In this document: positions 10,755 through 64,000 of the stretch, piece by piece
How positions within the stretch are numbered: the first letter of the stretch is position 1
Layout: the number at the start of each line of letters is the position of its first letter
NCBI GenBank assembly: GCA_025602915.1
Contig: JAHLJZ010000026.1
Location: 212,399 to 276,398, forward strand
From: Paraphysoderma sedebokerense
Taxonomy: Eukaryota; Blastocladiomycota; Physodermatomycetes; Physodermatales; Physodermataceae
Direction: 5' to 3'
Length of the DNA stretch: 64,000 nt
Notes under the pieces: model-generated
What the model was told of the DNA's origin: nothing
Seen by the model: only the letters and a program-made list of their open reading frames with translations
Databases searched by the model: none
Position numbers and translations under genes: made by a program

Positions 10755-13014
10755 ATGGGCAAAATCAAGAAAAAGGTAAAAAGCTTGTTATCCTGATGCT
10801 TATACCTTTGTCCTGTTGTACTCAACGCTAACCTTCTTCCGTCTTTCAGGGACAGGCTGGCGCTGCCACCAATTACATTACTAGAAGCCAGGCGATCAAG
10901 AAATTGCAAGTTTCATTGCAGGATTTTAGGTATGGGTCTGTTTACTTGCAACAGTTATAGTAATGCTAGAAGTACTAACGATCTGAGCAATGCAGACGAC
11001 TATGTATTCTGAAAGGCATTTATCCCCGCGAACCTCGCAACAAGAAGAAGGCCAACAAAGGATCCACTGCCCCGACCACATTCTATTACACTAAAGATAT
11101 ACAGTATCTCTTGCACGAACCGCTTCTTGCAAAATTCAGAGAATTTAAGACTTTCGCCAAAAAATTGGCAAAGGTTATGGGTAAAGGGCAATGGAGCACC
11201 GCAAAAAGCCTGGAAGAGAACCGACCTGTGTACACTTTGGATCACATCATTAGAGAAAGGTAAATTCATTGTTACCGTTGGTAGCTGAGTAAATTAGCAT
11301 TAACCTGTCTTCTTAGATATCCCTCATTCACCGATGCCCTTCGAGATTTGGACGACGCTCTTTCAATGGTTTTCTTGTTCGCCACTATGCCGGCGACAGA
11401 TCGGATATCATCGATGGTTGTCTCTAAATGTCAGCGTTTGGCTGCTGAATTCCAGAATTATGTTATCTATACTAGATGCATGCGGAAGACGTTTTTGTCG
11501 ATTAAAGGAATTTATTACCAAGCAGAAATTAAAGGTCAAGCTGTTACATGGATTACCCCATACCAGTTCAGCCAACATGTATGTCCACTTTGTTTGTCAG
11601 AATACGGTAGATTGCATTAATGATTGAATTGCCGCTGTAGGTCCCAACTGATGTGGATTTGAAAGTCATGTCGACATTCCTTGAACTTTACGAAACATTA
11701 ATGGGATTTGTCTTGTTTAAGCTTTATTCTGATGCAAATCTCAAATACCCACCTAGATTAGATATCGAAAAGGATAGCCAAGCTGCCGGTTTGAATGCTT
11801 TGATTCTGGAATTGAATAGTGCTACTCCTGTTGTTGATACGGATGAACGAGTTTCTGGTGATGACACAATTCACAATGTGAGTAAAGAAGCTTCATGGAG
11901 AAGAGTTTAAATCGAACATAGAATTTCTGACTGTTTTTAAATGTCCTAGACGAGTCGAACGGAAAGTCAAGAACGCCTTAAAAGCCTCTCTGAAAAAATT
12001 AAGGAGATTGTTAAAGAAGATAAGTCCCAACCAGAGGATGTTGATGATGAATTTGTGAAAGATGATTCGGAAACGTTGGATGAATTTCCCCGCATCCAGC
12101 AAACGAGCGAAGACATCTCAATTTTGCCTTCCTACAAATCTCTCGCTACATCTTTGACGACATTCCAGTCTCTTTTCAGCAACCTCAAGTTTTATCTGTC
12201 GCGTGAAGTTCCTCGGCACTCTCTTGAATTTTTGATTAAATCGTTCGGCGGTCAAGTCGGCTGGGATGCTGTGTTAGGCGCTGGCTCCGCTTTTGATGAA
12301 TCTGACCCGAGTATCACTCATCATATCATTGATCGACCCATTCTTCCGAATCAGATTTCCGGTCGTGTTTACATCCAACCACAGTGGATTTACGATTGTG
12401 TTAATGCTGGAAAATTACTTAAAACTGAAGGGAACAGACCCGATGAAGGATATTGTCTTGGTCAAACTTTACCGCCCCATTTAAGTCCTTTCGTTGAGTC
12501 TAGAGAAGGTGAGTATGTTCCACAAATGGAACTCGAAGATACAGATCTAGAAAGTGAGGCAGAGTCTGAAGTTGAGGCCGACAAGGAAGCGGAAGGCGCC
12601 AACGAAGCTGACTCGGAGGAAACTGTGGACATGAGGGATCAAATGGAACTGGAAGCAGAATCGGCTGGTGTCAATTTCTCAGAATTTCAGCAGCGATTTA
12701 AGCCGGTTGGCAATGAAAATAAAAAATCAAAGAAAGCAGGGCCCGCAAAGGGAGGGAAAGTGATGACTAGAGAAGAGAAAGAAGCAATTGAGAAGAAGGA
12801 ATTGGCAAAGGTTATGATGTCCAAGAAAGAGCGACATTTGTACGACCGAATGCAGTACGGCATCAAAAAGAAGCAAGATGAGGTGTGTATATTCAAACAT
12901 GTTTTCCATGTATTGGATGCTAACTAATGTAATCCCTGTCAGGTTCAAAATCTGAAGCGAAAGCGAACTGCCATTGAGAAGGAAAAAGTGAAGAAAGTGA
13001 AGAGCAACAAGTAA
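10755..13014 (+). CDS. PES1: Pescadillo homologue (PES1/NOP7), ribosome biogenesis factor
   Basis: A nucleolar protein that joins BOP1/ERB1 and WDR12/YTM1 in the PeBoW complex for 27S pre-rRNA processing and 60S assembly. Seven exons: 10755-10775, 10850-10929, 10996-11259, 11317-11578, 11641-11877, 11950-12882 and 12943-13014, all joining in frame. The N-terminus '[20 protein letters not shown]' and '[12 protein letters not shown]' are typical of the pescadillo N domain. '[20 protein letters not shown]' is its most conserved strip. A BRCT domain follows ('[14 protein letters not shown]' to '[14 protein letters not shown]', about 12220-12420). Then come an acidic Glu/Asp-rich segment (12530-12660) and a Lys-rich C-terminus ('KKVKSNK'). 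Length and order match the family. The mini first exon ends right after the lysine run. Confidence 0.97.
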
Positions 13015-14686: not shown

Positions 14687-15959
14687 ACAACCGAGGGAAC
14701 TCGAAAAATTGTTGGATTGACGCTTTAATATTGGACAATTCTAATTGCTTAGTGAAGTAATGGAGAGTCTCCACATCCGAGGCTTCTGCAGTAATATCGG
14801 CACCGTCCGCATCATCAAATTTATCGCCCAACGGATGAAACTGTTGAATGATTAGCCTATACATATCCTTGCGATCCTTCAGCAATCGCAATAATCCATC
14901 TAGGTGTCGTTTATCGTCATTTATACCTTTGAGTAATAAATAGGAGAGGTTCACATCCTTTCCAGTGACACGGGCGTGATGATCCAGCATTTTAAATACT
15001 TGTGACAATGGATAATCCTTTGAAACACTGGGCGCCAACATTTCACGCACCTCTTGAAACGGTGAAAGCAGTGAAAAAGTAAGACTTGTATGGGGAAATC
15101 GATCTGTCAGTATATCGAGGTGATCGAGGGAACCTATCGTTGAAACTGAAGTGAGCGGCGGATGCGGTTGATTGTACTCCTTTGGGTAATGAGAATTCAA
15201 AAATTCAAGCAGCTCGAATGTCGCTGGATTATCGAGCGGTTCACCGATACCGTGAAAAGATACTGAATGAATATGACGATGACGATCGGCGCTATCTTTG
15301 ACATAATGGAAGTAAAGAATTTGGAAAAGGAGCTCTTCCATCGTAAGGTTTCGGATCAGGCCAAATCTTGAATTGACACAGAAAGTGCAATCCCTACAAC
15401 ATCCGACCTCCAGAACCGTTTTGTTTAGACTAAGTTTATGTACCAGTGAAATAACATTCAAGTACCTGACTCGATATACAGACTGTTGCTGGCACCATTT
15501 TGTCACTCGGAGCAGTCGTGCGGCCCCTTCCGCCATCTTCAATATTGGAATGATAATCCATATCGTGATCATAATCCTAATTTTGAGACATGTGACAAAG
15601 TGAGTTGAGAGCTTCTACAGGTCTTCTACGTATATTAAAAATAATACCAGACAGACTGTTTCAATAGTATGGCCGTCCATTGTTTTAAAGACCACCTTTT
15701 CAGCTCTACGTAATATCATTCCCCCAACTGATTCATACCAAAAGGTCGAATCTTTTAGCTTCGTCTTATTTCTATATAAGTTTGGGATGTTATTTGATAT
15801 CGTTTGACGCACAGTATGAGTCGAACTCTCCCAGGTGTGGGTTGAGATTGGGGTAAGAAGGGAAGGGGAGGAGAAATGACGGTGGAGTGGGCAGAGAAAA
15901 TGTCTCCTGGCAGGAGCAGCTATTATGGATAGTAACTGTTGCGGTAGGCGAGTAATCAT
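14685..15959 (-). CDS. RlmN-family radical SAM protein, probably mitochondrial
   Basis: Three exons, read from 15959: 15959-15648, 15576-15466 and 15407-14685, giving about 381 residues, the usual RlmN length. The N-terminus 'MITRLPQQLLSIIAAPARRH' looks like a mitochondrial presequence. Exon 1 ends 'KTMDGHTIETVCL', exon 2 ends 'VPATVCISSQ' and exon 3 opens 'VGCCRDCTFCVNSRFG'. Together they rebuild the RlmN core with the CxxxCxxC cluster ligands and the upstream Cys of 'TVCISSQVGC' (equivalent to E. coli Cys118). 'HGIGEPLDNPATFE' and 'VSTIGS' match the SAM-binding motifs, and 'LLLKGINDDKRHLDGL' is also typical. RlmN methylates C2 of adenine in 23S rRNA and tRNA. The C-terminus ends 'IKASIQQFFEFPRL' and lacks the usual AACGQ block with the second catalytic Cys, so activity is open. 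The helical N-terminal domain is weakly conserved. Confidence 0.85.
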
Positions 15960-24731: not shown

Positions 24732-27700
24732 ATGGCCTCCACCGAGAAGGATGCGCATTCGCGTCCTCATCGGCCGATGGACAACCGTACCAAACTGAAA
24801 TCGCAATCTAATAGCTCGAAATTAGTCAGAGTCAATCCCTCCATGATCTCTAAGCAGAGAGTGAGAGATGGAAGTCCTTCGGTCATTGACAGAATTAAGG
24901 CAAATTTGTATTCAGCCTCTCGTCCTCCACTTCGCCCGTCAGAATATGCACGAATGCTTTCCCTTTCAACGACTGATGCCCTCGTCTCTCATGATACAAC
25001 ATTAGTCCCTTCAAAAATTGTTCAGCGAATGAATCGTTTTGACGGGCAGAAAGTTGTCACATCAACAGTGCCTGACGATCAACCTCTGTTTTGCCCTACT
25101 CCTGCCGAAATCACGCTTCAAAACTATCGACCTTTTCAAACGTATGAAGTCGTCCTAACATTTAGAAACGCGGATGCGGTACTTTGATTAGTGTTTTAGT
25201 TCCTCCCAGTATTCAACTTGCTAAAGTGTATTGTTTCCCTTAGTCTCCACGCTGGATGCGAGTTGAGCCGATCGACCATCCTTGCTTTAACATCTTGGGA
25301 TGGAAAACTGAATCTTTGCAGTCGGGTCGCATCGCCGCCGGCATGGATGTTGCATATATACTTCAATTTACACCCGAAGAAGAGCGCGATTATAACCTGA
25401 ATGTAGTGTGTGAAACCGAGAGAGAGAGGTTTTTAATACCAGTTCGAGCAGTGGGAAGTCGAGGTTGGACTTAATAGTTTACATCTGCATATTGTTTCTC
25501 CATTTTTATCTCATACTTTCGTTTAGCTATTCTTGACTTGCCCGATCAAATATTGTTTGGCAATTCTGCCGTGAAACACATTACGACCACGACAATTTTG
25601 GCGAAAAACATGGGCAAAAGAAGAGCGAAAATTGCGATGAAAGTTGATCCTCCTTTCGCAATATCACAAAATACAGCATTAATAGAAGCTGATAAAAGTA
25701 TACAGCTTGAGCTTACATTTAAGCCCGAGGTTATCATCTAATTTGTAAACACGGGGATTTTGATGTCAGAATTACTGACTGTTTTCTTTAGAGCGTAGGA
25801 TCCTATTCCCGCGACTTGATCATTAACTTTGACAACGGTGATGAAATAGCTGTTCAGTTGATTGGAATTGCCGATGATGTGAATATTTATTTGGACCGAA
25901 GTGAAGTCCGATTGGATAATACATTTCTGACAAGAGTGTCCTACAAGAAGATCAAAATATATAATAACAGTGATATTGTGGTATGTACTGTCATAGTATT
26001 AAGTACTTTATAACTTTCGGCTAATATGTTATTGTTGTAGGCCGATTTTCAATGGAAACGTTTCTCGTCTCCGGCCGATGAGCAAACTTACCGACAACGA
26101 CAGAAACATTCTCTTGATCAACTAGAAGTTGAAGAATCCTTGCTATTTTCTGTCAATAAAGTAGACGTATGCTTTTATTTACTCAAGTTCTTCAATCTGA
26201 TAGCTTTCATAGTAACAGTAATACGAATATAGGGCCTTCCAACATCTGCCAACGATCGCCTTTTATTAGCTCAAAAATTTGAACGGAAACGGCAATTAGT
26301 AGAACAAGATAATTTAGGATTCACAAATGAAGCTTTCTTGATTGAGCCTATTTCTGGGAGAGTTTGGCCAAAATCACATATCGATGTTTCAATCGGATTC
26401 AAGCCATCTATTGCTGGCCCTCAAAGTACAATTGTCTTCTGCGAAGTGTCGGGCCGTGAAACTCGTTTGCCCCTACAACTGAAGGTGGGTTTGGAGGTAA
26501 CGCTCAACTTAACTAGTGCACTCACTCAACTATATCCCAAAATAGGGCGAAGCGACTGGTCCCAAGGCCAAATTATCGTATGATATGCTCAATATGGATG
26601 ATATATTTGTGAAGTCTTCTCATGTTTATGAAGTGATTTTGGAAAATATTGGCCATATCGATGCCGAATATCATGTTACTACACTATCGACTTTATTTGG
26701 CTCAAAATTCGGTTTTAGTCCGGACAGAGGTATTCTGGCTGGCGGGCAGAAGGAAGTGATCCAGATTACTTTCCAATCTGATATTCTTGGAGATTTCTAT
26801 GAAGAATTTATTTGGAATATCAAGGTAATACCTCCTCGTAAATATTAGAGTTTCCTATTGTATATTAAGGTAGATATGTTGCCTTGATAGGGTGCGCCTA
26901 CACCATTGCAGCTTGCATTTAGTGGTCGTGTCATCGGCCCCACATTTCATTTTAACGTTTCTGAGATTGAATTCGGCGAATGTGCCTACGGATTTCATGT
27001 CCAGAGGATGTTTGATTTGGTAAATACTTCGCCTATATCGATGAGTTACCAGTTCCACATGGATGAGGACAGTGGCGACTCAAAACAATTTTCAATCATA
27101 CCTCGACGCGGCGAGGTCGGCCCAATGAGTACTCAAGTGGTTGAGGTCCACTTTATGCCTTCCGCTACAAAGCAATATAATACTCGGCTCAATATTGATG
27201 TTGAAAATGTCGGTTTAGCTGTTTCAAGCATTGCTGTGAAAGCACTCGGCACCGTCCCAGAGGTTAGTAGTTTATTCAAATCCACAATTCTTAAATATAT
27301 ATGATATCTTGCTGACAGACAAAATTGTTGTGTAGATACAACTTGAAACGCCATTCGTGGATCTCGCAGAATGTTACCTTAACGTAACCTACAAAAAGCA
27401 GATCGTACTTAGTAATAATACCGACCTTCCAGCCAAATATTCGGTCATCCAGCAATCAGGATCCAGCCAACTACTATACAACTTTCAAGTGGACGAACCA
27501 TCGGGCGTACTGGAGCCACAATCCACCAAGTCTATTGCACTTGACTTCATCACTAAAAGTCTAGGGGAATCGAAGTGTGGCATTACTATCCAAATTCTGG
27601 GTATGGAGGACTATCCTCTCTCGGTTGAGGTCACATGCAATGGTGTTGGTCCAAACATCAGTCCATCTGTCACTGAGCTCGATTGGGGGAAGATATCTGT

Positions 27701-30700
27701 GCTCAAGAACCATTCCATGAGGATGACATTGCGGAATGATTCACCAATACCTGCTGACTTCAGACTCACACTTGCCTCAGATCAGACAGTATTTGCAGTG
27801 GAACCATCAAGAGGCATACTTTTACCATATCAAACTGCAGAAATTACTGTAAACGCTTTTTTGGATGACGCTCAAAGAGTGGTTGATATTCTCAAAGTTC
27901 TTGTCAAATCTGGCCCAACTCGTGAGATCACTCTTTTAGCAAGTGGGAAAGGGTCGACAATTGTTTTTGACGATGATGTAACACACATTGACTTCCGGAA
28001 TGTTTTCACTCACCAATTCCTTTGCCGCGAATTTACCATGACAAACAAAGGAAGAAAGAGTCAGCTCATATCTTGGGCATCATCAGAGAATTTGTACATA
28101 TTGAAAGCCGGCGAAAATAATCAGACTAAAGCAGTGTCATATTTTGAAGTGACGCCTTCGAGATTCGTTCTAAACTCAGGAGAGAAACAAATTGTCACTA
28201 TCAAAGGTTTCTCAGGTGTTGCGAGACATCATCAGGAAAAATTAGTGTGCCAGGGAACAGTAGAAAAAGATTCTATCCGTAGACAAATTGTGGAAAGCCA
28301 TATTTCAGCAAACTTCATTGATCCCAAGATTGAGGTGGTGCCTTCCGTTCTTAACTTTACATGCGCTTTTGTTGATGAGAAGCAACTGCCATTGATACAA
28401 ACACTGACATTAAAGAATGTCACACCTCTATCTTTCTCCGTACAATTACGGTGTCATCAACCATTTCAGATATTAAACGAGTCATCAGATATTGCATTTG
28501 AACCTGAGAAGGAGATAAAAATACCTGTCCAATTTGACCCGTCATTGTTATTGAAAGATCCGTCAATGAAAGGAAAGTCAAAATTGCTCATTAGCTACAT
28601 GGGACATCCTCAAAGATCATATATTGATCTCAAAAGTCACGTATCATTCCCTGAAATCAGACTCGAAAAGTTGGAAGTTGACTTTGGATGGGCTCCTCCG
28701 AATGTGAAAATTTGCTCTTCCTGCAGTATCACTAATATAAGTGATCTGCAGTTGAGCTATTCTTGGTATTTCTTGTCTGACGAAATTAACATCGAGACTC
28801 AAGACACTGAAGAACAGACATTCGATATTCTGCCATCTTTGGGAATCCTGGCACCGGGCGAAACACAAACTCTTCAGCTCACATTCCACAGTGGCAAGAA
28901 TGGCCGATACCGGCGAAAGGCAATCTGTGACGTTTTGAATGGTCCAAAGTACACATTAACATTGCAAGGAGGAACATCAGCAGTCGGATATGATCTGAGT
29001 TCACAAGAACTTGACTTTGGATCTCAACAGTATCAAACAGTAGCTGAGAAAACCCTTGCACTTTCTAACAATGGGACAATCACATTACAGTACAGCATTG
29101 TGATACCGAGGAACTCTGACTTGTTCCATAAAGTTCTAATCTCTCCACCAAATGGTAATATATTGCCAGGGAACAAACAAATTTTCAAAGTCTGGTATGC
29201 TCCATGCATTCCTGAAGTAACTGATGCTTACTTCTATATCGTTATGAAATACTTGGAACCCATAGAAGTAAAAATTAGAGGAAAAGGATTTGCACCTTTT
29301 CTTGCGATTAATTTGCCTTTGGAGACAAATGAACCACCTAAAATAACAAAATTGGTGACCGGATCAAAGGATATCTCCAAAAGGGTGCCATTGGAAGGAA
29401 ACCACACAGACACTGATGTTTTTGAACCACATATTTTGACAGAAGAGCAAACAATTGAAGATGGAAATACAAAATTAATTGCAATGACAAAAGCACATAT
29501 ATCTGGATTAAATTTGAAGATGCACTACAGTCACAAACATACTTCAAACTATGTTGGATCTCGCCTGATATTGGATGCACTTACACAACAAATTGAAGAC
29601 TCTCAGAGAAATCTCATCATCAATTTATCTGCCATTCAACTTGCCACTTATACAATTAACTTTGGATTTGTTACCAGTGATACAGTCTTGACGAAGGAGT
29701 TCACTATTCAAAACATTACAAATTCATCATTGACGATATCTCCTGTCAAGAATCTCAATTCTGCCTTAACAATCAATGCAGAAAAAATTAAATTTTTGCA
29801 ACCGATGGAAACAATGAATATCCAGGTTTCTCTTGATACTTCTAAGATTCCTGTTGACAATTGTTACTTTCAAGCTGATATTCCCTTTAGTATTACTGGT
29901 GGTCCAACCAGTGTGGTCAAGGTTTCTGCAATAGTCACTTTGCCTAATCTCAGTGTCTCAGTCTCAGACATTGATTTTGGAAATGTTCTATGTGGCCATC
30001 GCAAAGCAATGAATATATACATTCAGAATTCATCTGCTGTTCCTTGTGATTGGAATACTATGTTGTTGGCACAAGGACCTGACACAGCTGACAGAAAGAG
30101 GCCTAAAAGGAAATATAGTTGTGATTTTGAGATTATACCGAACATGGGATACTTGAAGCCTGGAGAAAAGATGATTTTGACTGTAAGATTCACGCCATCA
30201 ATGAGCAAAAATTACCAATTTTGTCTAGCATTTCATGTTAAATCAAACACTAGACCAATAACACTCCCTGTGTATGGCAATGGTGATAAACTTGATTTAC
30301 TATTTGAGCCTGAGGTTCTTGACATGGGCAGCATTTTGCCATGGACTGATGGAACTGAGTGTAAAGTCAAATTGCATAATCCATCAGATTATCAAATTGA
30401 AGTGTTTTGCGCTGATTTTGATCTGCAGTACCACAAAGAGCAAGAAATACTGGCCGAACTTGCTAAAAGCGGTGAAAAAATCATCACACTCCCACCCCGC
30501 CAACCAGGACAAAAGATGGTTGGAATTTTTAACTTTACCAAAGATAAAGCTAATAAAGATGGCATATCTTCTGGTGAAGTCTTTGAAAATGTATCCAAAA
30601 CTGAAGAGGAAGTGAAGTTGCCATTAGAAAGCAATGAACAAAATCAGCTAATTGTTGTTCTCTACGGTCCTCCATATTCAGGCAAATCAAGTATTGCAAA

Positions 30701-33700
30701 TATGTTGGCGCAGAAGTATGGATTGTGTATATTGAAATTTGATCAGGTGATTGATATATTGATGTCATCTGTAGATTCAAATCATCAAACACTTGTATCC
30801 AAGATGAAAGATGTCTTTCACACTGACCTTGATTTGCAACTGCAACTCACTAGTAGTGGCAAGCTTTCAAGTGCAGGTGAAACCGAATCAAGAACCACAG
30901 TGACTGAAAGTGTGGGAGAGCCCAATGAACATGTCTCAAGCATCCCTGATGAAGCAATTGCTGAGATTCTAAGACTATGCCTGGCAAAACCTGAATTTAA
31001 AACTGGAGTAATTATTGATGGACTTGATTCCAAATTGTGCAGGAATCAAGTGACGTTTATGAAAGGATTATTGCGAGTGTTGTCAGAGAAGAGGACATGT
31101 CATTTTGTTCATATAACACTGGATCCCTCACAAGTGTGTAACCGAGAGGCAGAGTTTAAAAAGCAATTATATGAAGTTGAATTGAGTAAGTTGCCTCCAG
31201 TGGAGGTAATATCAGAGGAAACTTATGATAGTATGAGTGAAATGGATGGATATCATTATGATGAGAGAGTGAAAAATCACAGAAAACAATTACAACATTT
31301 CCAGCATCAAAAACTGTTGGAGAAAAAGCAACTGGAGGAAGATATTATTGCGCGTTTGGGTGAACGTAAACTGGAGGAAGAGAAATCCAAAAAAAAAGAC
31401 AAAAGAAAATTAACAACAAAAACTAATTCAGATAAACAAGACAAAAGTTCACAATCTCTGATATCACCAGGACGGAGCGTCAAAACTAACAGCATTGAAA
31501 GGATTGGCTCACATCACAAAATGAAGTTTGATGAAATAATAATGAAGCCTGAAATACTGAATGAGCTACCACCAGAAATAATGCTATCTGAAGCAGCATA
31601 CCGGCAATATGAAGTTTATAAATCATCATTGGAAGCAGTGATTAATTATGCCAAGGAAGGAGTAAGGTCCATTCCAACAAAATCTGCAGTGACCTCAGAT
31701 AAAAAGAAGTTAAGGGGGTATCTGTCATCAGACAGTACCTCATCTAACCTGAGCCATCCACTTAATGAGGTTGAATCAAGTGGAGATGAAAACTTCATAC
31801 ATTTTTATGAAGTCAATGGTGTTAAACAGAAAGAATTATTATTTCATTATATTGCAGACTTAATTTCCATATCACCCAAGCCTGATTTGAATGAAGAGAC
31901 AGCACTTCCTCTTGATGTGCCAACAGTTGAGCAAATCATATCACTAGATCAATGTCATGCCAATTACAGTGAACAGAGTAGAAAATTTACAATTGTTGGG
32001 ACTAAGTCACCGCTCACATTGCATGAATCTACTTCAGTATTGAATGACACAAACCAGAATTTGCAATCTTTAAGATCAGACCATATACTCAAAAAGACCA
32101 AAGTTGTCGGCAAACAAGATGATGCAGATCATTCTGACAACACGCCCAAGGAACAATTTAGCTCGCATAGATGGATAATTGACCCAAGAAGTAGAAGAGA
32201 AGTTGCAGTGAAGTTTTCAACAAATGAAGTTGGCAAATTTGAAGAAACCATACAATTTGGAGTTCTCAGTATGAATACATTATTCCCACTGAAATGCCAT
32301 GGTGAGAGCACTTACCCACAAATATTAATGGATCACAAAAAAGTTTTTAAAAAGTACAGGTGGGATACTGTAGGGCAACAGCTCATCAAAGGGGAGTATA
32401 TAGGGAAACTCTCACTGTTTGATTTCGGTCCTCTAGTTATCAACAAATTCAAGGATAAAATGGTAGATAAGGCAGCGGATAATGTGGCAGAACTTAGACT
32501 TACTAACCCAATGGATTCAGACATCAAGCTGTCTTTTGGATTCCTCCATGATTTAAAATCGGAATATCTTGGTGTAGAGCCTCTGTCTGTTGATATTCGC
32601 CGTGGAGAAACACAAAGTATCCATGTTCAAATTTTTCCAAAAGTAGTTGGATTGTTAGAGGATACATTGGTTTGTTGTATCAAAGATAATCCACAACCTT
32701 ATACATTTAAATTTAGGTGTATTGGAGTTCGACCTGAAATAGAAATTGACAAGAAGACTTTATCATTTGAAAGAATATTGGTGAATAAAACTGACAAAAA
32801 GGAGATTAAGTTAAGAAATACTACCCTCATACCTATTCTGTGGAGGTTGTCCGGTATAGAAAACTTGGGAGAAGAAATTGAAATTACACCTTCAGATGGT
32901 GCAATTCTTCCAAATGAAGAGTGCATAGTGGTGACTAAGTTCCTCGCCTTGAAGCCATGTCTAATTAAAAAAGGTTTACGTCTAGAAGTGGTAGACTCTG
33001 AAAAGAGTAATGCTGTGATGCAAACTGAGACTATCACTATCACCGCTGAGGTTTATGATGTGTCTGTCGATATTATATTTCCCAAAGGAAATGACAACAT
33101 TCTTGATTTTGGAATTATCCAGGCCATTGAAGAAAGCAAGCAGACCATATATCTTAAAAACAAGGGAAAGTATGATATATCATACAAATTTACATTTGAA
33201 ACCAAAGAGTTTCTGAATATCTTTGAGATTGTGCCTTCTCAAGGTATATTGCAACCTTCTGACAAGTCTCATCCTGTTCAAATCACTTACAAACCTGGGA
33301 GGGAAATAGAGTATGAAAGTGCTCCCATATTGCGATGCCTACTAGTGGATACCAACAGTGAAAGTACCACAAATGACATACCAATAAAGGTGTCAATCAA
33401 AGCAGTGTTTAGCCAATTCACCATATTACCAGTTCGTGACCTGAATTTTGGTCCTATTTTAAATAGTACTAAAGCAACAAAATCATTCATAATTGAGAAC
33501 ACTGGTGATTTTGAATTCAACATCTCTATCTTCAAAATAGAAACAGAGCAAGTAGGAGCCAAAGATTTGAAGCATAAACTCATGCAGGGCAAAGGTCCCA
33601 AGGACACTAAAGGCAGGAATGACAAACCATCACCTCAGTTGTCAGTGAAAGCAACAAAAAAGGATCAGATAAAACAAGCTGATGCGGTAATTTTTGGACC

Positions 33701-36700
33701 ATTCACAGTTTTTCCTACAAATGTAACAGTCACTCCTGGAAGTAAGCAGCAAATAACTGTAGAATTTCATCCAGAATCTTCAGGCTCTTATGCTGAACTC
33801 ATTGCAATTGATGTATCAGACCACAATCCCAAAGAAATGGATGTAATTGAATACCATTTGTTAGGAGAAAGTTGCATCCCTGAGATCAATACTTCAGATT
33901 TTCTCTCAATTTTTGAAGAACACACTGTTACAAAAAGACTTGAACTTTCCTACATGCATGGGAATGTGTATGCCGAGGATGATCGTGTATTCTTTTTTGG
34001 AGCCCATGTTGTGGGCCAGCAGGTGCAGGCCAGGTTCAAGATATCAAATCCTTTAAAGATTAGTTGTGAAGTCAGTTTATCTGTTAAACCCAGGATGAGA
34101 ATGACAGCACAAGATTTTGCATTTGAGATTGAGCCTAAAAAGATGATACTACTGAGTCATGAAGCGCAGTATGCTACTGTAACTTTTCATCCTTCATCCA
34201 TACAGTCCTATACTGGTGTATTTGAAGCCATCGTTGAAAATTCATCAGAAGCTCAACCATGTATGCTGACATTTGACTTAAGGGGAGAGGGCACTTTACC
34301 ACGAGTGTCTGTTGAATTCCCAAATGAACAGAACAAACAAGATTTATTAATGAAGTTCAAGCGAACGTTGGTTGGAAAGTCTCGCACCCTGCCCTTACTT
34401 GTTAGGAATGATGGCATTATACCAGCCAAGTTCACTGTAGAATGGAGTGGAGGAGTTCCAAATGCTTTTTTGTGTGAGGGGTTGAATCGATGTTTGAGCT
34501 TGAACCCTCAAGAATCTCACACTTATCACTTCGAATATAAACCACTGAACAGTGGGAAGATGGAGGCAGATGTTCAGCTCAAAATCATTGATAATATGTT
34601 TGAAAGCAGCACATTTCGACTAATTGGAGAAGGGTACATGGATTATATTACATTTGATGAATTGCCAGATGATACTGGAAATGAAATCAATTTTGGAGAT
34701 TGTATGATGGGTGAATTGAAAGAGAAACACTTCACCATTACAAACCATTGTAAAGAAACTGTTAAGTTCTCGTGGGAGAAGTTGTCTGATTTTATATTTG
34801 CTCCAAGCGATGGTACAATTGAACCTTGCCAATCTAAGATGATTTTGGTCAGATTCCAGGCAAAGCAACCCATTGTTCTTCAATCAGTAATTGCCCGTTG
34901 CAAACTGAATTCTAGTTCTGTCAACGGCATTGCAGTTGCGGATAAGATGCAAAATGATCAATCCTTGCAATCCAAGAGTATAACTGAAGGCAATTTACGA
35001 TCCCAGATTTTTGATGAAAAGGGGCTGGAGAAATCACTGATTCTGTCAGCGTTCTCTGACCATTCCTCATTTTTATGTGAGATTTCCAATATCAATTTTA
35101 AGACAACATTAATGTTTCAGTCTCGCATTTACCAGTTCCAAATTCAAAATACTGGAAAAGTTAAACTTCAATTCTCTGCTCATTTTTCTCCTCCTAGACA
35201 TGAGGATACGCCCCCCTTCAAAGTAGAGCCCCAAAATGGGATAATTCAACCAAAAGAATTCTGTACTTTCACAGTCAAATTTACTCCAATGGATGCAATT
35301 GATTACACTGCGCAGCTGAATGTTGATATTCCAAATTTAGTTTCACACCAGAAATCAATAGTTATAGAGGTCAAGGGAAGTGCAGTGAAGCCATTGTGTC
35401 ACTTTGAATTGGAAGAAAGTGACTATTTAAGTGGCGATAGAAGAACTTTGGAGAATCAGTTGCTTGCAAATGGCCAACAAGTGGATCTGCAGACTAGGGT
35501 GATAGAGTTTACTGCATGTGGGATAAATATACAAAATGTTAAGAGGTTTTACATAATGAACCCAACTGACACATCCTATGAATTTGAATGGACAAGAATT
35601 GACATGGGAGATACTTCCAAAATGTTTAAATGCTTGACACCAAAAGGTATTGTTGTTGGGGGCAAAAAATTTGAATTAGCCTTTGAGTATTTTCCAACTG
35701 CAACTGAGATAGTGGTAAGTTTTTTTTTCAAGTTAATAGAACTTGGATGCACGCCTTTCTAATGTTGTTTAATTTAGGAGTCACTATGGCAATTCCATAT
35801 TCCATCTCACAAAATTACTGTTCCTTTTCTCTTGGTTGGCCAGGCAACAGAACCAAGTATTTATATTGACAAGCCAAACATACACTTTAAACCAGTACTA
35901 GTTGGAAAGCAGGCCAAAGAAACTGTGCGACTCATTAACAATGAATTGATGCCATTTAGCTTTAGTTTAAATGAACCATCATTAAAGACGAGAAATGGAA
36001 CTAAATCTGCTCTGCAGTTCAGTCCTGTTTCAGGAACAATTGAGCCAAAATCTGAAGTCTCAGTCGACATAATATTTCAACCCGCCACTGAAAGAGTATT
36101 CAATTATAGCCTGATGTGCAATATAAAGAGGAAGTCCAACCCTGTGGCCATAAATATTAAAGGGGAAGGTTACATCATACATGAAGTGTTGCAGACTGAA
36201 GGGGTTAATGGTGATCTAAGTCCACTAATACCCAACAGTGGTGAGAACCTCATAGAGTTTGGCCATGTTTCGATTGGCGAAAACACCATTAAGAGGATTA
36301 TCATACAGAATAATGGCAAGTTCATGTTTGATTTTGTTTGGAAAATAAGTGATAATGCGAAACAGGTGGTAGCAGTAAAACCAGATAAGGGGACAGTTGG
36401 AAGAAAGGAACAGATGATCTGTGAAATGATATATTCACCGGTTAACACACAAAGCCTTCACAATGTGACTGCTATTTGCCACATCACAAATGGCAATTAT
36501 TATGAGACTAGAATCTTGGGTAATGGAGTGAAACCACATTTGAAATTTTCAAATTACATACATGACTTTGGTCTTTGCTTCCTCCATCAAAGTGGAGTTA
36601 AACCACCTAGCACTATATTTGAGATTAGAAATGATGAAGTCAAGCACATATCATTTGATCTCACCTCTTCATGCCAGAAAGTCTTTGAGATTGATCAGAG

Positions 36701-55293: not shown

Positions 55294-56540
55294 AGGGAAA
55301 TCAGTGAGCAAATAACATACAGTACGACAATTCTCACTTGGTGATTTGATTTGAAGCGTTCAAGAGAAACACGACCTTCATCAGATTGATCAGAATGCGT
55401 AGCGGACAAGACCACACGGTCAGATAAAATCGTCCTCATCTATGATTCACTTATTGATAATTTGTCAGGTTGGTATAGGCAACTCAAATGTCACTGATTG
55501 TGTATGTTTTGTCGCTACATATACCACTCAAGAAGTTGAAAACCGAATCCATCATTAATTGGAAAAGTGTCCAAGTCAAATGAATTTCTATCTTTTTATG
55601 TCACTGGTGCAAGGCTTTTTGGTGAACTCAAGATTTGTACTGTTAAGGGTTGCCTGGTTGATCGACAAGCCTCTTGTTTGTGCCGCCGTGCGTAGAAAAT
55701 ATCCGAACTGCATTTGCCGTCCCAAAGAAGAAGTAAAAGCCCCGTTGGTATATGCAGGCACGGATGAGTGTATCTTTAAGACATTGCAGAAGTGATCCCA
55801 CAAATTGCACTGCCTATTTGTGTCCAGTATATTATTATTAGTAATTAATCATTTTGGAGACTTTGAATTCAATCTTGGCAACGTCTCAGTAGGAAGGAAC
55901 ATCAGGGTATAAGCATCCTCATTCGGCCAACGCACGGAATGAAAATGACAGATTGAGAAGAAATCGCTCAACAGACGTGGCATAAGCTCAAGTGCACGGT
56001 GCAATTCGCAATGTGGAATGTGGAATGAGTTCGGAAAGAGTTCGGAACTCCGGATATGTAGAGATTGCAGTCCCATTACCCGCTGCCGTGGGCCCGATAA
56101 GGCGGCAGGCAGCGGGGGAACAGGGAACAGGGAACAGGCTGGAACAGGGAGTGAACAGGGAACAGAGGACGCGGGCTTCCAGTTGGTGCCGGTGGACAGG
56201 GAACTGGGAACAGACCCGAACAGCAGACCGGAACAAGAGGGCGCAGGCTCTTGGTTCACTCACTGTTCACTCACTGTCCACCCGTTCCTCACTCGACACA
56301 ATCGCAGGCTCGCAACACCCTTGACAGTCGCACCCATTGTATTTGTGATGCACTCACACTTCTTTCTGATCAATGCGAATCCTTTTCCCATGAGAGCCCA
56401 TCCAAAAAACACACTCCCAACACAAATACTTCCTCCTCCCCTTCCTCTTTCCCCCATCCTCTTCCCTCTTCTCATCTTTCCCAATCCCCCCTCTTTCTCT
56501 CCACACTCAAGTGTTGCTTCGCTTCAATTCATCTTCACCA
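55294..56540. other. Divergent spacer between LAA1/HEATR5 and the secreted modular protein
   Basis: At 1.25 kb this is the largest gene-poor stretch in the window. Its first part is ordinary AT-rich sequence. It holds a GGAACAG-type repeat cluster (56115-56235), a duplicated TTCACTCACTG (56254-56277), and then a C/T-rich leader (56395-56510) just before the ATG at 56541. Pro- and Ser-rich open frames here come from the repeat and the pyrimidine tract, so I do not call them genes. Confidence 0.55.
56115..56235. repeat. GGAACAG-type degenerate tandem repeat
   Basis: The unit GGGAACA(G) or close variants recur about eight times between 56115 and 56235, at first back to back and later spaced. 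It is a small degenerate minisatellite in the upstream region of the secreted protein gene. GAGTGAACAG (56149-56158) is the exact reverse complement of CTGTTCACTC (56263-56272), so the cluster could pair with the repeat downstream. Confidence 0.75.
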
Positions 56541-59500
56541 ATGCAAAAACTGTCCGCATCCTTCCTTGGATGGGTGCTGTCCGTCCTCGGTTTCTTTTTA
56601 ATTGCAGCTTACGCTCAAGTATCCGCGCCCAACTGGGTTTTCGGTACAGCTTGGGAAAACCTTGATCAGCCAATTTCAGTCAAATTTGCGCCAAATGGCC
56701 GCGCTTTTATTAACCTTAAAGGCGGTATGTAAGCCCTAAACTCGGTATATCATTTGTCAACTAACTAAAAAGATAATTTCGCCGATTCATTTGTGCAGGT
56801 GTGCTTCTTACCACCTCTTCATCGAACGACCCAATTGTCAGAGAATCTTGGGATCTTAGTCAGGAAGTCTTCAATAACTTTGACAAAGGTAAATAGCGAA
56901 AATCTCACAACGGATGATGCCAGCGGCTAACCGACGAGTTATTGTTGTAGGGTTTCTCGGATTGGCCATTCCTCCTAATTATGCTGCGAGTCCCAGAGTT
57001 TATGGTCTATTTACAGCGGATAAAGGACCAAATCAAATTTCCCCGGTTTATAATGATCGCTGCGCGTCGAACGTAAGGCAATCCAGTCTCATTAAAGATG
57101 TTGTTTGATTCTGTCATACTAACGGTTCCGCTGGACAGATCTGTGCAACAACTGCTTCATTGGTTGTGATTTACGTTGACGAAAATGGAATTGGCCAGTC
57201 GCAACAGGTAATTCAGTTAAACTAGTACTTTGTAACCTACAATCCCTTATTCCTGCTTTCCTTCGTCAGACTATCTGGTCCGATTCTACCTGCGTTCATT
57301 CGACCACACACGATGTTGGACAAATCAACTTTGACAGTGCCGGCAATCTTTATCTCACTAATGGCGAAGGGTCTTTTTTTGATCCCGTTCTTGATTTCGG
57401 CCGCCCTCCAGCGACATGTGAGTATTGTATTTTGTAAAATCTGAAGCTCGGTCTTTATTAACACCATTGCAGGCCCAAATGTATCTGCATCTGACACCTC
57501 GATCGACCCGGCTTACCCCGGTGGGGCTTTCCGCTCTCAGGCAAACAGCTCACCTCAAGGAAAAGTTCTACGCTTTAGCGCTGCTTCTTTAGCGACCGCG
57601 GAGTCTAGTCGTACTCGTGCTACTCCGGTAATGATTGCTAAAGGTTCGAATCAAAACATTACAATTGATATGCTACTTTCCGTGCGTTGATTAATCATCC
57701 ATTTTTAGGCTTTAGAAATCCTTACAGAACATACCTTGACACTGCAACCAACGAACTTTGGATTGGTGCGTTGTTCTACATCATAATCATCGATAAAGCG
57801 CTTGCTAACGCGCTGTTTTAAGGTGATGTCGGTGGAGGCACTTTTGAGGAGATTAATCGCTTAACCGGTATCAATACATTACCTGGTAATGCCGCCACGC
57901 CACCAAATTTTGGATGGCCTTGTAGAGAAGCTCTTCTTGTCAGGGATTATGCTTCATTCGGTACAACTTGCTCCGCTGCCCGCTTTCAAAATGTTCAAGC
58001 CCCTGCCTTCGCCTTCCAACACGGCCAGCCGCTTGGCGTAAACCCTCAGACCGTTCCAGCAGATGGTCAATCAGGTACCTTGTTTCATCTCCATTTCGCA
58101 AATGCGAATCCTCTTTAACCCGTATACTATTTTAAATAGCTATCTCCGGTATCTTGGTTTATAAAAGCCCAACGAATTTCCTTCGAAACGGGTTGTTTTT
58201 CTCTGATTATGCTCGAGGTGGCATTTGGTATTTCCCAGCGCCTTACAATTTTGGTGCCCAGCCCCAAACGATTTTGACTGCAGCTCCCGGCATTGTCGAT
58301 ATGACCGAAGGTTTGCCTCTCTTCATTCGTTCTTCCATTTCAAATTCGTTTCTAAATCAGAACTCTTCTAGGCCCTGATGGATTTATATACGTAACACGA
58401 CTTCAGTCTGGCAGAATCAGTAGACTTTTCTATACGACAACTTCGCTTCCACCCGTTGTCGCAGTTGTTACTCGCAAATCCGGAGCAGATTCTAGAACTA
58501 TAACTTTTGATACTACTGGAACATATAACCCAACTGGAGGCGCACTGACTTATTTCTGGGACTTTGGTACGCGTCTCTTATTTTATGACCCGGGTTACTT
58601 GCAAATAGGCTGATCAATCTATTCCCAGAATCCAACGGTAGTCAAGACAGCGCTGTCGCTTCTCCGACTTTCACCTATCCCGCCCGCGCCATTCTGAATG
58701 CCACACTCCGTGTGACGAATTCAGCTGGTCAATCCACCACAAGAAGTATTAGAGTCACCCCTGGATATTTCATCACTGTTACCATCACGACAACCATCGC
58801 AAATAACACCTGGAAAGTGGGAGATACATTCGGATTCAGTGGTACCGCGAGAGATCAAGATGGTACGGTTATGCCAGCCAGTTCTTTTGTATGGCGTACC
58901 ATTTTGAATCACTGTTACTTCCAATCTGCTTGCGACACCGATTTGGCGTGTCACCAGCACGGTTTAGAGACGTATCGAGGGGTTACATCAAATGTTACAA
59001 CTGCTCCAGGTACCCCGATTTTTCACAGAACTTTAGATCTAAACTGAATTTAACAATTTCCGTCAGAACACGAGTACCCTGCGTATCTCACCATTCGAGC
59101 GATCGTCACTCACCCGACGGTTGAAGGCGTTGAAACTACTCAGGACTATGATGTTCATCGTACGTGCATTTGATGTGGTTCTGCCTGCGAAGTCTACTTG
59201 TTCTGACAATTTTATTGAATCCGTAGCTCTCACCTTTGTCAACTCATTCGCCACAGTTCCTAATGGGTTGGATGTCTTCTTTGGCTTGACTCTTTGTCAG
59301 ACTCCTTGTATGTTGCTCATAGTCCTTTTACACAATGTATATATGTTCTGACATCCGTCTTTTGTTCAGGTGCTTATCGGGTCATTGCCAACTCGGCTTA
59401 TACCTTCAACACCCGCTCCCCTCAGATGTCGCTGGACGGAGGTCTTTTCACCTATGGATCATGGTCCACGGGAGCACCCATTTCTCAGACTGTTCAGGCG

Positions 59501-62500
59501 ACTTCTTCAAGAACATTAACTGCAACATTCAATCCTGTCACATACACTCGAAATGCTGTTGCTGCCCCTGGAGGTACAGTCTTTGACTTGGTTTAAAATA
59601 ATATTTGTTTATTGACAAAGTTCTCCCCCGCTGTTAGGTCTGGCTTTCTCTTGCGGTTTTGATGTGTGTACTCTGTCGTGGACAGGAAGTACAGCCGCAG
59701 GCTTAGCAGGTTACATAATCAGATTCCGTCAAGTTCCATTTGGAGTATCCCGCGCATCCGTCCCCTTCTCCTTCTACTTATCGCCTGCTAGCGCTGCTTC
59801 TGAAACACTTCGAAATCTGGATTCTGGTGTTGAAGTTGATGTTCAAATCAGTGTGTTGACTTTTACTGGAGGTGCATATTTTGAAGGAACACCTAGCGCA
59901 ACCGTCACTGCGCGCACATCTATTACTCCGCCTAAAGGAACTGCTATTTGCGATTGTAAGTGATACCAACCTGCTAATATTTTTTGATAAAGCTAATCTA
60001 TCTTTTCAGTCTCTTGCAAAAATAAGACTATCCTTATTGATGATTACACGGATGATACGCTCTTGCAAAACGCTGCCGGATTCGGTACCAATGTCGGCGG
60101 TGGCGCAACCCTTGGTAAAAATGGAGCGGCCCAGGGCACTATTACAGGTATACACTCTTTTGTATTCACGCCATACTATATTTATATTCTAATATTTCTC
60201 TGTTCTATTAGTTTCGCGCGCTGGTGGCGGCGGAGCTTACTGGTTTACCAAGGTTTCCGAGAACTCTTGCTTTAATTCATCACAATATACAACTCTCAGA
60301 ATGGATGTTATTGTTCCCACCGGAATGACTTTTAATATGAAGTTGGATTTCCTTGATACTGCTTGTAATAGTGCGTATCGATGTTTTTACACTTTCCGAT
60401 TGTCGCGGAGTCTAACTCCGTTTTAATTTCTAGCTTTGGCTGGAAGCAGTGGTTCTGTCTCATCTGGCGACTATGTCCGAACATTTGGCAGTCTGACTAC
60501 CATCGAAATTCCTCTTGCGGCCTTCGGACCATTCCCTCGTGATAGACTGACAGCCATCGTCATCGATTTCTTCTCCATCACTGGTACTCTCACCGTTGAT
60601 AATATTGTCTTAATCAATCGTTGTTCTGGCAGTCCCATCTGTCCTTCATTGGTAGTCGATGCTTTTGAGAACAGAGCCGCCTATGCAAACGGTGTCAATT
60701 CGCTTAGCTTTGCAACCAATGATATCGGAATGGGCAGTGACGTAGTCGGTTTTGCTGGTCTGGAGCTGGTCCCACTCTCTGGTTCTAGTTGGTTTTCCGA
60801 AGTTCAAGCTCCTGGAGTTTGCGGTGTTGTTACCGGCTATACTCATTTGGAATTCGACTATTCGGGACCCCTCGTTGCGGGAGCCTTGCCGTTCAACGTT
60901 ATTCTTCAATACTACACTGGTACCGGTGCCTGCAGTGCAACGAATGTTGCCCAAGCTGTCGTTCCTGGATCAGCTGTCACTTATGTAGTCGGAGGAGCGT
61001 CCGTTCCTCTTTCGTACTTCCCTGGAGCGAATTTAGACCGAGTTTGGAGGATTATCTTATCTGGATTTGACCCTTCGTCAAACGATGTTGCACATGACTT
61101 CAAGAATCTCCGTTTCGTGAATCGACAGTCTTGTCGCTGTGACAGCAGTAAGTAAATTTTTCATAATGATGTATTCTGTTCCAATGATTTACCCCGATTT
61201 TTCGTAGTATTCCTTGACAATTTCGACTCGGCTGCTCAGTTTGGCACGAACTTCAATCTTCTCGGTGGAGCGTTTGGATCTGATGGAATGGCTGTTGCAA
61301 GAACCGCTGCAGGACAACTTTCCCTCACCGCCAATGTCCCAACCGCCTACTTCTACTCAAATTTCGCTCGTGCTGGATGTTACAATTCCTACTCCCGTCC
61401 CATCCTTACCTTCAGTGTCAACGGACCAGCTGGTGCTGCTTTCACTTTAGAAATTCAAATCCGATCTCCGGATTGTCTCACTCCGGTTGCTGAGATCATC
61501 CCGTATAGAATCTCCACTACTGGTGCTGCTATCGACATCACGATTGACCTCCGAGAAAGATTGACCCCTCAGCAATTAACAAGGCTCCAAGTTTGTTATT
61601 TCACTTTTTTCCTTTGCCGCTTTCTCTTATTTACCTATGCCTTGTAGTCATTCGTTGTCGATGGGTTCAGTGTAACCGGTCAGGCTTTCGTTTTTGACGA
61701 CATTCGTCTGAACTCTGAAGGATGCGGATCTTATAGTCCTCCCCCAGTTGTGTGCCTCCCTGGTATGTGAAAATTTGCTTCTCTATATATACCCCCAACT
61801 TACTCTAACTGTTACTTCTATAGTGGTCATCGATAATTTCGATACCCCCGTTCAGTTTGCCACGTCGAAGAATCTTCTCGGGGGATGGTTCGGATCTGGT
61901 TCCATGACTGCCACTCGTACTGCTGCCGGAGCTTTGTCACTTGTGTCTTCTCCGACGGGATACTTCTACACGAGTACGTATCAGATTTAACCAGACTTTC
62001 CTTCCAGATATTGACTTTTTAATTGTACTAGATTTCCTGCCAAGCCCCCCTGGTGGATGTTATGATGCATCAAGAACTCCACTTGTCAACTTCACAGTTA
62101 CTGCTCCTGCCGGTGCTACTTTCCAAGTGGAAATCCAATGGCGGTCAGCCGATTGTGCCACCGCTCGAGCTGGTGCCGCAGTTTGGACTTTTACTGCTAC
62201 TGGTGCGCGACAACAGTTATTTTTCGACATGAGAGATAGAATTGGTGCGGCCGAATTACGTCGTCTTCAAGTAACTTTGATTCTTTTCGCTCCAAAATTG
62301 TTTCTCAATATTAATACAATTATATTATGAAGGCTCTTGCTCTAATTGGCTTTTCACAGAATGGGGTCGCATATGTTTTTGATGATTTCTCCTTTAATAG
62401 TGTATCATGCACCGCATCGTGTCCTTCCGGTTTGTTTCTCCCATTTCGCATGTGTCCATATAAATATCTCATTACCCTTTTTTCTAGTTCTCATCGATGA

Positions 62501-64000
62501 TTTCAGTAATGCGGCGAGATATACTACCGCCAATCTGAATGCACTTGGATTTAGAACCGAAGATGGTGGCATGTTGGCTGACACCATTGACGCTGGCCGA
62601 TTACGATTAACCGCTCCGGCAACCGGGGTATGTATTCTCCTGACTTTCATTATTTTATTTGTGGTCGCACAACTCATGTTCGGTTGTTTAGGGTTCTTGG
62701 TGGTATACCAACTTGTCCCCAAATACTGGCGTTCCTTCCGCTTGTTTCAACGCTACCTCCTTCCCCAATTTGACTATCACTTATTCTGGACCCGCTGGTG
62801 GATCATTTTCAGCTGAAGTTCAAATCCACGGCCCCCTTTGTGATTCTACTATCGCTAGACGAATTACTATTCCTCTCACCACCGACGGAACTGTCCGAAC
62901 TACAAGTGTGGATATCAGGACATTAGGCGTCACAGCCACCGAATTGACTCGAATCAAGTCCATCGCCTTGATCGCTTTCGCACCTGGTGGAGGCGTGTTC
63001 TTCATTGACAGTTTATCTCTAACGGCTGCTACTTGTTCTGGAACTGCACCCCCTGTGAGTTCGACTACCTCCGCAACAACCACTACAGCAGTCACGACCT
63101 CGTCCTCAGTAACGACAACCACCACTTCCACACCAGTAGCTTGCACAACTGGTACTGTTCACTATTTACCTCACTTTGCTTGAAAAATACTAACTCTCTG
63201 GCAATCAGTCTTGGTCGATGACTTTAATTCCGACACCCGATATAATTCACAAAATCTGTAAGTGCTTTTACTCTAGCATTTAGTTCCCATGATTGCTTAT
63301 TGATGAGTTTGTTTTACAGCAATGATCTCAGCCTATGGACTGATGATGGCGGAAGTACACGTAACTATTTTTTCTGTTGTCATTGAAACTACCGTTATGT
63401 GATGTCCTAACTATCCCTTCTTTAGGTGGTGATACTGTCGCTGCTAGCGTTCTGAGCCTGAATATTGCCGTAAGTTCAGATTTGTATACGACTCACCTCG
63501 TTCTTGAAAACTGACTTATTCGTGTCACATAGGTCCCGAATCCAGGCTACTGGTATACCGTTTTGGCTGGTTCTACGTGTTTCGACGGTCGAGCCTTCCC
63601 TATACTTGAGATTGTGGCATCCGGTCCTGCAGGCGCTACTCTCCAGGTAATTATTGTGTCTGCTCATAAACATCATTCTCTCTGTATTCACGTCTTCATT
63701 ATTTTGTTTAGGTTGAAGTCCAAATAAGAGATACTGCTTGTACTTTTGCCTCCATCGCAAGAAGAGTCTATTTCCCGGTTACTCTTACCGCCAGCTATGC
63801 AGTGTACAGATTTAACCTGCTTGCGGCTGGGGCATTTAGCCTCGATGAACTTGCCCGTCTTCAAGTAAGTCACTTGCCATAGATTCTATATAATTAGTAT
63901 CAATTTTGAGTTCTGACACTTCCTTATTAGGCTGTTGCTATTGTCGGATTTTCTCAAACCGGCATTTACAATATTGACCGCATTTCATTGCTGTCGACTG
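56541..64000 (+). CDS. Secreted sorbosone-dehydrogenase-like / PKD / modular repeat protein, 3' end cut
   Basis: The start ATG 56541 opens a signal peptide ('MQKLSASFLGWVLSVLGFFL'...AYA|Q). A six-bladed propeller of the glucose/sorbosone dehydrogenase type follows ('VKFAPNGRAFINLKGG', 'GFLGLAIPPNYAASPRVYG', 'VGQINFDSAGNLYLTNGEG', 'GFRNPYRTYLDTATNELWIG', 'NFGWPCREA', 'GPDGFIYVTRLQSG'). Next come a PKD domain ('FDTTGTYNPTGGALTYFWDF', about 58,500-58,770), two beta-rich segments and a fibronectin III-like domain ('CTLSWTGSTAAGLAGYIIRF', about 59,670-59,730). At least six related modules run from 60010 to the window end, the last two joined by a Ser/Thr-rich linker (about 63,050-63,150). More than 25 short introns cut it. 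Fungal relatives of the propeller include PQQ-dependent pyranose dehydrogenases (AA12), so an oxidoreductase acting on sugars outside the cell is possible but not shown. The modules look like carbohydrate-binding beta sandwiches. Confidence 0.85.
60010..64000 (+). repeat. Six tandem protein modules, mostly bounded by phase-1 introns
   Basis: Modules begin at about 60010 ('ILIDDYTDD'), 60641 ('LVVDAFENR'), 61208 ('IFLDNFDSA'), 61824 ('VVIDNFDTP'), 62488 ('VLIDDFSNA') and 63209 ('VLVDDFNSD'). Full copies share a pattern: [VI]-x-[VI]-D-[DN]-F, a small-residue loop, 'YFYT' or 'YWYT', a Cys, 'GPAGA.F.VEIQ.R..DC', a polar strip, 'R..L.RLQ' and 'G.....DDI'. The modules are closest at M3 and M4 ('NLLGGAFGSDGM' against 'NLLGGWFGSGSM'). 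M1 and M2 are the most divergent. M6 runs off the window. Confidence 0.85.

Follow-up and report, generated by a model that had tools for sequence, protein, structure and literature searches.

How did a fungal gene come to carry a row of six related modules, several of them set between introns of the same phase? The question arises at the end of a stretch of 64,000 nucleotides of the Paraphysoderma sedebokerense genome (contig JAHLJZ010000026.1, here C26, positions 212,399 to 276,398 of the forward strand; "the window" below means this whole stretch), where a gene that we call A encodes an enzyme part followed by the modules M1 to M6. An initial annotation of the window proposed that the array grew by tandem exon duplication, which the symmetric phase-1 introns would allow without breaking the frame. 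We argue here, with a probability of about 0.7, that a module was duplicated as genomic DNA together with its introns, and that the modules bearing the boundary intron were later multiplied or homogenised separately in two lines, one represented by A and a gene D, the other by a gene E.

The model of gene A has 30 introns of 54–74 bases (21 in phase 1, eight in phase 0 and one in phase 2) and gives a product of 1897 residues, in which a GSDH domain, a PKD domain and an FN3-like stretch precede the six modules. The gene runs from 56541 to 64092, its last 92 bases lying beyond the window on another contig, C125, where a whole-gene tandem copy, B, comes next (85.9% identity over 7746 alignment columns). 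In genome searches in which only the best candidates were scored, modules were found in A, B, D (contig C64) and E (contig C12), and neither the module proteins nor the enzyme part led to any further module gene. E has the layout of A, with GSDH, PKD, an FN3-like stretch and six modules. D consists of a start that resembles a signal peptide, as does the N-terminus of A (both judged by eye), and of five modules; GSDH was not found in it, and among the candidates scored it is the only gene in which the modules stand outside the enzyme context. A search of the genome with PF07995 itself gave no match, the domain being broken up by introns.

The recurrence of intron positions within the modules is the evidence that carries our reading. 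The comparison covers 17 modules (six of A, five of D and six of E), B being uncounted as a duplicate of A. A phase-1 intron at the module boundary is found in M3–M6, E3–E6, D1 and D2, that is in 10 of the 17, or in nine if D1, where it is unproven, is set aside; this site is empty in M2, E2, D3, D4 and D5, and displaced in M1 and E1. A phase-0 intron after the residues RLQ is present in nine modules (M3, M4, M6, E3–E6, D2 and D3). A third site, also in phase 0 and before a W-W/Y motif, occupies a single alignment column in three modules (M5, D1 and D5); in M6 and E3–E5 the intron is close to that column without matching it. When the introns were placed at random, at most four modules shared one position in 5000 placements, and a further 5000 in which exonic context set the weights gave the same maximum. 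The boundary and RLQ sites therefore recur above chance, which indicates that module DNA was duplicated with its introns in it. The unit would have been a module of about 160 residues that opens with a phase-1 intron and whose last strands are preceded by a phase-0 intron. Identity compared segment by segment does not clearly point to modules having been broken at the RLQ intron.

It has to be considered that the introns might have been gained independently, at shared preferred sites, after the modules had been duplicated. Intron turnover in the family is high (3 of the 14 introns in the non-module part of A are at the same place in E, all of them in phase 1), and the introns at the shared sites have no mutual similarity; both points speak for this view. 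Such insertions would nevertheless have to account for 9–10 coincidences at one site and nine at the other, where context-weighted placement gives four at most, and we consider this explanation very improbable.

Comparison with B, and with D and E for the sites inside an identical patch, bears out the intron positions read earlier from the window: the phase-1 acceptors at 60009, 61207, 61823, 62487 and 63208, the phase-0 introns after RLQ in M3, M4 and M6, and the lack of an intron before M2, to which E2 adds a parallel, and of an RLQ intron in M5. The statement that the leading introns lie directly before a [VI]-D-[DN]-F motif is right for M3–M6, where the distance is three residues, but not for M1, where the intron splits a codon 10 residues ahead of the first Asp in IDDY, a displacement of seven codons. 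The motif itself is looser than proposed, since it reads LDNF in M3, VDAF in M2 and IDDY in M1. Two features had been overlooked, namely the phase-0 intron of M5 and M6 in the loop before W-W/Y, and an excess of phase 1 over the whole gene.

The first two modules do not share one history with the rest of the array. M1 and E1 both have an extra cysteine downstream of the leading intron, which lies 10 residues (M1) or 11 residues (E1) ahead of the motif's acidic residue where other modules have three, and an inner intron is common to both; M2 and E2 are both without a boundary intron. In the ancestor of A and E, the enzyme part, M1 and M2 would already have been in place, ahead of modules with the boundary intron. 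In A, B and E the modules are the tail of a GSDH–PKD–FN3-like enzyme, and D is made up of them throughout, behind its signal-peptide-like start.

The module tree, built from 20 modules without B3–B5, which are equal or nearly equal to those of A, speaks about the later steps. M3, M4, D2 and D3 make up a starred group (100/99), D2 and D3 are a starred pair (97/94), and M5 groups with D5 (90/87, unstarred). M3 and M4 are unsupported as nearest neighbours (72/9.8), and a grouping of just M3 and D2 is rejected (p 0.013). In approximately unbiased (AU) tests, a single clade of the six A modules with those of B is rejected (p-AU 3.6e-10), as is a single clade of M3–M6 with B6 (p-AU 1.9e-62); a single clade of all E modules is not rejected (0.385), and one of E3–E6 is borderline (p 0.063). 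M1 with E1 (0.313), M2 with E2 (0.394) and the four together (0.124) are not rejected either, although the best tree contains none of these groups. If D4, which has a long branch, is removed, M3–M6 with D1–D3 and D5 form a starred side (98/96) opposed to E, M1 and M2; with D4 included the same split receives 69/76. The mean identity is 0.35 within M3–M6, 0.35 within E3–E6 and 0.26 between these two sets.

The expectation that each module of A would group with its neighbours rather than with copies in distant genes thus holds only in part, M5 going with D5 and the A-only clades being rejected. Growth by tandem duplication stands as far as the duplication of intron-bearing units is concerned (the sites recur in A, D and E, and D2/D3 are a pair), but not as a single local amplification. 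We propose that the A/D and E lines each multiplied or homogenised their boundary-intron modules, and that some introns were lost afterwards. Alternatively, the six-module array may have been complete before A and E separated, and later conversion would have made neighbours within a gene alike: both genes have six modules in the same context, the peculiarities of M1/E1 and M2/E2 match, and identical patches between A and B suggest that conversion takes place. The tree contains no position-wise pairing of M3–M6 with E3–E6, although homogenisation would erase that too. We find this early completion of the array rather unlikely.

Are the phase-1 boundaries more than a coincidence? The background consists of 153 introns in 20 predicted genes outside the family, unverified predictions that give 68/43/42 introns in phases 0/1/2 at a penalty of -8. 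A penalty of -10 changes the counts to 60/31/34 and one of -6 to 132/135/97, the latter including gene A, which was merged into an upstream prediction; the filter removed a gene starting at 73159. A strict subset of 17 introns gives 13/2/2. Compared with this background, the pre-module part of A (56541–59637) is very rich in phase 1 (12 of 14 introns, p 1.2e-5), and exonic context alone would lead one to expect 42% in this gene; the corresponding part of E has 4 of 15. All five module boundaries of A are in phase 1, but so are 16 of its 25 other introns (p 0.14). Given this gene-wide excess, the phase-1 boundaries of A prove little. They stand out in E, not in A: the proportions in E are 5/5 and 5/25 (p 0.0018), the five sites being homologous and hence non-independent. 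Phase 1 is found on both flanks of M3, M4, M5, E3, E4 and E5, uncertainly of D1; domain edges coincide with introns for part of the modules only.

It may be, then, that the symmetry of phases is incidental, the modules having multiplied by unequal exchange or conversion between homologous repeats which carried the boundary introns along. This is compatible with the duplication part of our reading, and it agrees with the general preference of A for phase 1 (12/14 outside the modules and 21/30 overall, versus 43/153 in the background), with the share expected from exonic context and with the homologous exchange that the A/B patches suggest. The contrast between boundaries and other introns in E speaks against it, as does D, where the modules are placed behind a different start, with an unproven intron at the junction. 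We give this view somewhat less than even odds. In any event, symmetric phases permit duplication, as the initial annotation pointed out, but need not have caused it, because in-register exchange would keep the frame at any phase.

True class 1-1 exon shuffling would be a stronger claim. The modules would have been multiplied in two gene lines and also moved behind a separate signal-peptide-like exon in D, and the FN3-like exon of A is also of class 1-1; the claim would hold only if D was formed by joining at a phase-1 site, for which the intron at the D junction is an unproven candidate. We regard such shuffling in this flagellated fungus as unlikely. The likeness to the animal class 1-1 modules, as described in PMC8001218, consists in extracellular-type domains, phase-1 introns at both edges and tandem arrays. 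The differences are the fungal host, the short introns, the second intron within the module and the small reach of the family: there are at least four genes, of which only D lacks the enzyme context, and mobility into unrelated proteins is at most putative.

Returning to duplication of the intron-bearing module, its strength depends on the splice sites. Those of A were placed by comparing the gene with B, followed by hand edits that removed four introns and inserted four. Among the changes made by hand, two donors of the automatic model were shifted (58329 to 58311 and 60365 to 60371) and two of its introns were dropped: 62300–62359 clashes with the RLQ and boundary sites, and 63059–63109 is the Thr/Ser-rich linker. 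GT and AG are kept at the corresponding places of B for all 30 introns. Nineteen introns are outside the near-identical patches, and 16 of them are 41–65% identical to B (the others 75, 83 and 91%); exons wholly outside the patches are 72–93% identical, with changes at 9.1, 4.3 and 33.6% of codon positions 1, 2 and 3, and exon gaps between A and B are multiples of three.

Of the 30 introns of A, 29 were recovered by a gene finder that took its splice tables from A, D and E but its codon tables from other genes (58 long open stretches); it missed 58311–58371, added three and began too far upstream, at 56018. An earlier finder over-predicted introns; with training confined to A, D and E and penalties made stricter, no other gene passed the threshold. 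For D, 9 of 11 introns were exact at all three penalties; that of D1 was missed, and so was the donor of D2, whose boundary intron of 117 bases exceeds the limit of the finder and whose acceptor was found. For the 15 module introns of E, 14, 13 and 11 were recovered at penalties of -6, -8 and -10, the leading intron of E1 at -6 only. The D1 intron 12101–12190 and the donors of 12869–12985 and 15037–15113 (reversed C64 coordinates) were set by hand, and the donor of the E4 boundary intron was revised. The first intron pair in the N-terminal model of E is doubtful; the guided model of B contains errors and was kept out of the counts.

The A/B alignment contains two patches, one near-identical and including five introns, the other fully identical over 1766 bases and including the six introns of M3–M5, whereas most introns in the flanking sequence agree at only about half of their positions. 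The patches are most likely due to gene conversion, and the tandem copies would be exchanging sequence in this manner; it may also be that the assembly copied one sequence into both places.

Several observations weigh against the history that we propose. All the splice sites are known from sequence comparison alone, and 11 of the 30 introns of A fall inside the near-identical patches, beyond the reach of the divergence test; among these are the boundary introns of M4 and M5 and the RLQ introns of M3 and M4, for which the support comes from D and E, where the position recurs. The D1 boundary intron, placed by hand and unpredicted by the finder, is in a stretch that is open in frame and whose length is divisible by 3. 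Introns at equivalent sites have kept no similarity, either at the boundary (mean z -0.07 over 45 pairs, best 2.8) or at RLQ (mean z -0.12 over 36 pairs). The module tree is weak in its deep branches, 5 of its 17 inner branches being starred, and it requires seven changes at the boundary site and six at the RLQ site, which implies frequent loss or gain of introns; loss seems to us the more plausible direction.

What the modules do can be approached through their resemblances. No Pfam family is listed for those of A. Over the 17 modules, CBM30 matches three weakly (E up to 1, best E 2.4e-4) and CIA30 two (best E 0.0025), besides single chance-level matches to unrelated families; E6 reaches 19.6 bits where the curated cut-off of CBM30 is 27, M3 and D5 have no match to it, and NCBIfam matches none of the 17. 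A profile search of structures gave E values of 0.0028 to 0.015, with CBM30 at 0.0028 and CBM11 at 0.014, and an engineered repeat protein scored 0.013 in the same search. An AlphaFold model of M2, one of the six modules (13 sequences; predicted local distance difference test, pLDDT, 78.8; predicted template-modelling score, pTM, 0.79; residues 18–28 poor), is a beta-sandwich whose best PDB matches are CBM11 (E 4.6e-5) and CBM30 (E 7.8e-5), with template-modelling (TM) scores of 0.55 and 0.57 and a root-mean-square deviation (rmsd) of about 6; over its fold matches to CBM11 and CBM30 the TM score (query) is 0.50–0.58, the identity 13–15% and the rmsd 5–9. The modules resemble the sugar-binding domains CBM11 and CBM30, to judge from weak profile matches (which include CIA30) and, for CBM11 and CBM30, from fold matches; unlike those families, they score under the Pfam cut-off where one was shown, and their sugar binding is only predicted. 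We take the fold of CBM11, CBM30 and CIA30 to be a galactose-binding-like beta-sandwich. A likely role of the modules would be to hold a sugar-oxidising enzyme at a glucan.

The GSDH match of A is well above the profile cut-off (68.5 bits versus 25). Pfam fn3 is not listed for residues 1–845 of A; the corresponding stretch of B gives E 0.058, and that of gene E gives E 4.4e-5 at 24 bits, one bit short of the cut-off of 25. We found 33 bacterial loci related to the GSDH–PKD part (16 of them matching through PKD, at about 25–31% identity). The module is absent from all 33 at E up to 0.1, several of these loci being truncated at contig ends. This fits, without proving it, the addition of modules to a bacterial-type GSDH–PKD core.

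After an arginine-rich stretch, the proteins end in REEL (A), RDEL (B and D) and HSDL (E). The endings of A, B and D resemble what we take to be retrieval signals of the endoplasmic reticulum, and the modular protein may therefore not simply be secreted.

The last base of the window is also the last base of C26. The join to C125, with which C26 overlaps, looks unique because copy B on C125 differs at that place, and the two contigs probably belong together in the assembly. Counting modules beyond 64000, as had been suggested, was possible on C125: the array ends with six modules, and a longer, open-ended array is ruled out by the end of the gene 92 bases past the window. Elsewhere in the window, 27336–35759 is one open stretch of 2808 codons with many immunoglobulin-like domains of the HYDIN/CFAP type, in surroundings rich in introns. 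A HYDIN-like cilium protein and a Pfam Chitin_synth_1 match, the latter presumably a fungal character, fit a flagellated fungus.

Features of gene A and its surroundings, in window coordinates
Feature	Position	Strand	Remarks
Gene A	56541..64000	+	ends at 64092 on C125; comparison with tandem copy B
GSDH (PF07995), residues 41-437	56661..58418	+	Pfam E 7.9e-19; coordinates derived from gene model
Patch near-identical to B	57590..58935	+	A/B alignment; five introns
PKD domain (PF18911), residues 448-530	58449..58759	+	Pfam E 1.4e-10; coordinates derived from gene model
FN3-like stretch	59638..59955	+	single exon of 318 bases, phase 1 at both edges
Intron before M1, phase 1	59956..60009	+	upstream of the usual site; E1's leading intron lies within one codon of it
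Module M1	60010..60642	+	
Intron inside M1, phase 1	60371..60433	+	alignment position common with E1
Module M2	60646..61140	+	inside one exon; structure predicted
Boundary intron before M3, phase 1	61148..61207	+	
Module M3	61208..61762	+	phase 1 at both edges
Patch fully identical to B, 1766 bases	61216..62981	+	A/B alignment; six introns of M3-M5
RLQ intron of M3, phase 0	61591..61647	+	
Boundary intron before M4, phase 1	61763..61823	+	
Module M4	61824..62429	+	phase 1 at both edges
RLQ intron of M4, phase 0	62271..62332	+	
Boundary intron before M5, phase 1	62430..62487	+	
Module M5 and Thr/Ser-rich linker	62488..63151	+	phase 1 at both edges
Intron of M5 before WW motif, phase 0	62628..62691	+	same alignment column in D1 and D5
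Boundary intron before M6, phase 1	63152..63208	+	
Module M6, the last	63209..64000	+	end lies outside the window
Intron of M6 in loop before W-Y motif, phase 0	63470..63532	+	close to, not at, the column of M5
RLQ intron of M6, phase 0	63865..63930	+	
Overlap of C26 and C125	63885..64000	+	116 bases identical to reversed start of C125, which carries the gene end

It has been argued that the shuffling of phase-1 module exons occurs practically in animals only, and PMC8001218 asks for the reason. Another study (PMC6547436) reports that domains and exons align above expectation in 87 of 88 eukaryote genomes, significantly so in some fungi. Among titles and abstract openings in a limited collection, searched with a limited set of terms, we found no fungal array of this kind.

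The family is a good fungal case of the duplication of intron-bearing modules, and a likely case of conversion patches spanning introns in modular genes. If class 1-1 shuffling proved to be involved, this process would not be confined to animals. The family is small and bounded, with the distant E, the tandem pair A and B and the enzyme-less D, which makes the question of the restriction to animals testable across a few related fungal genomes.

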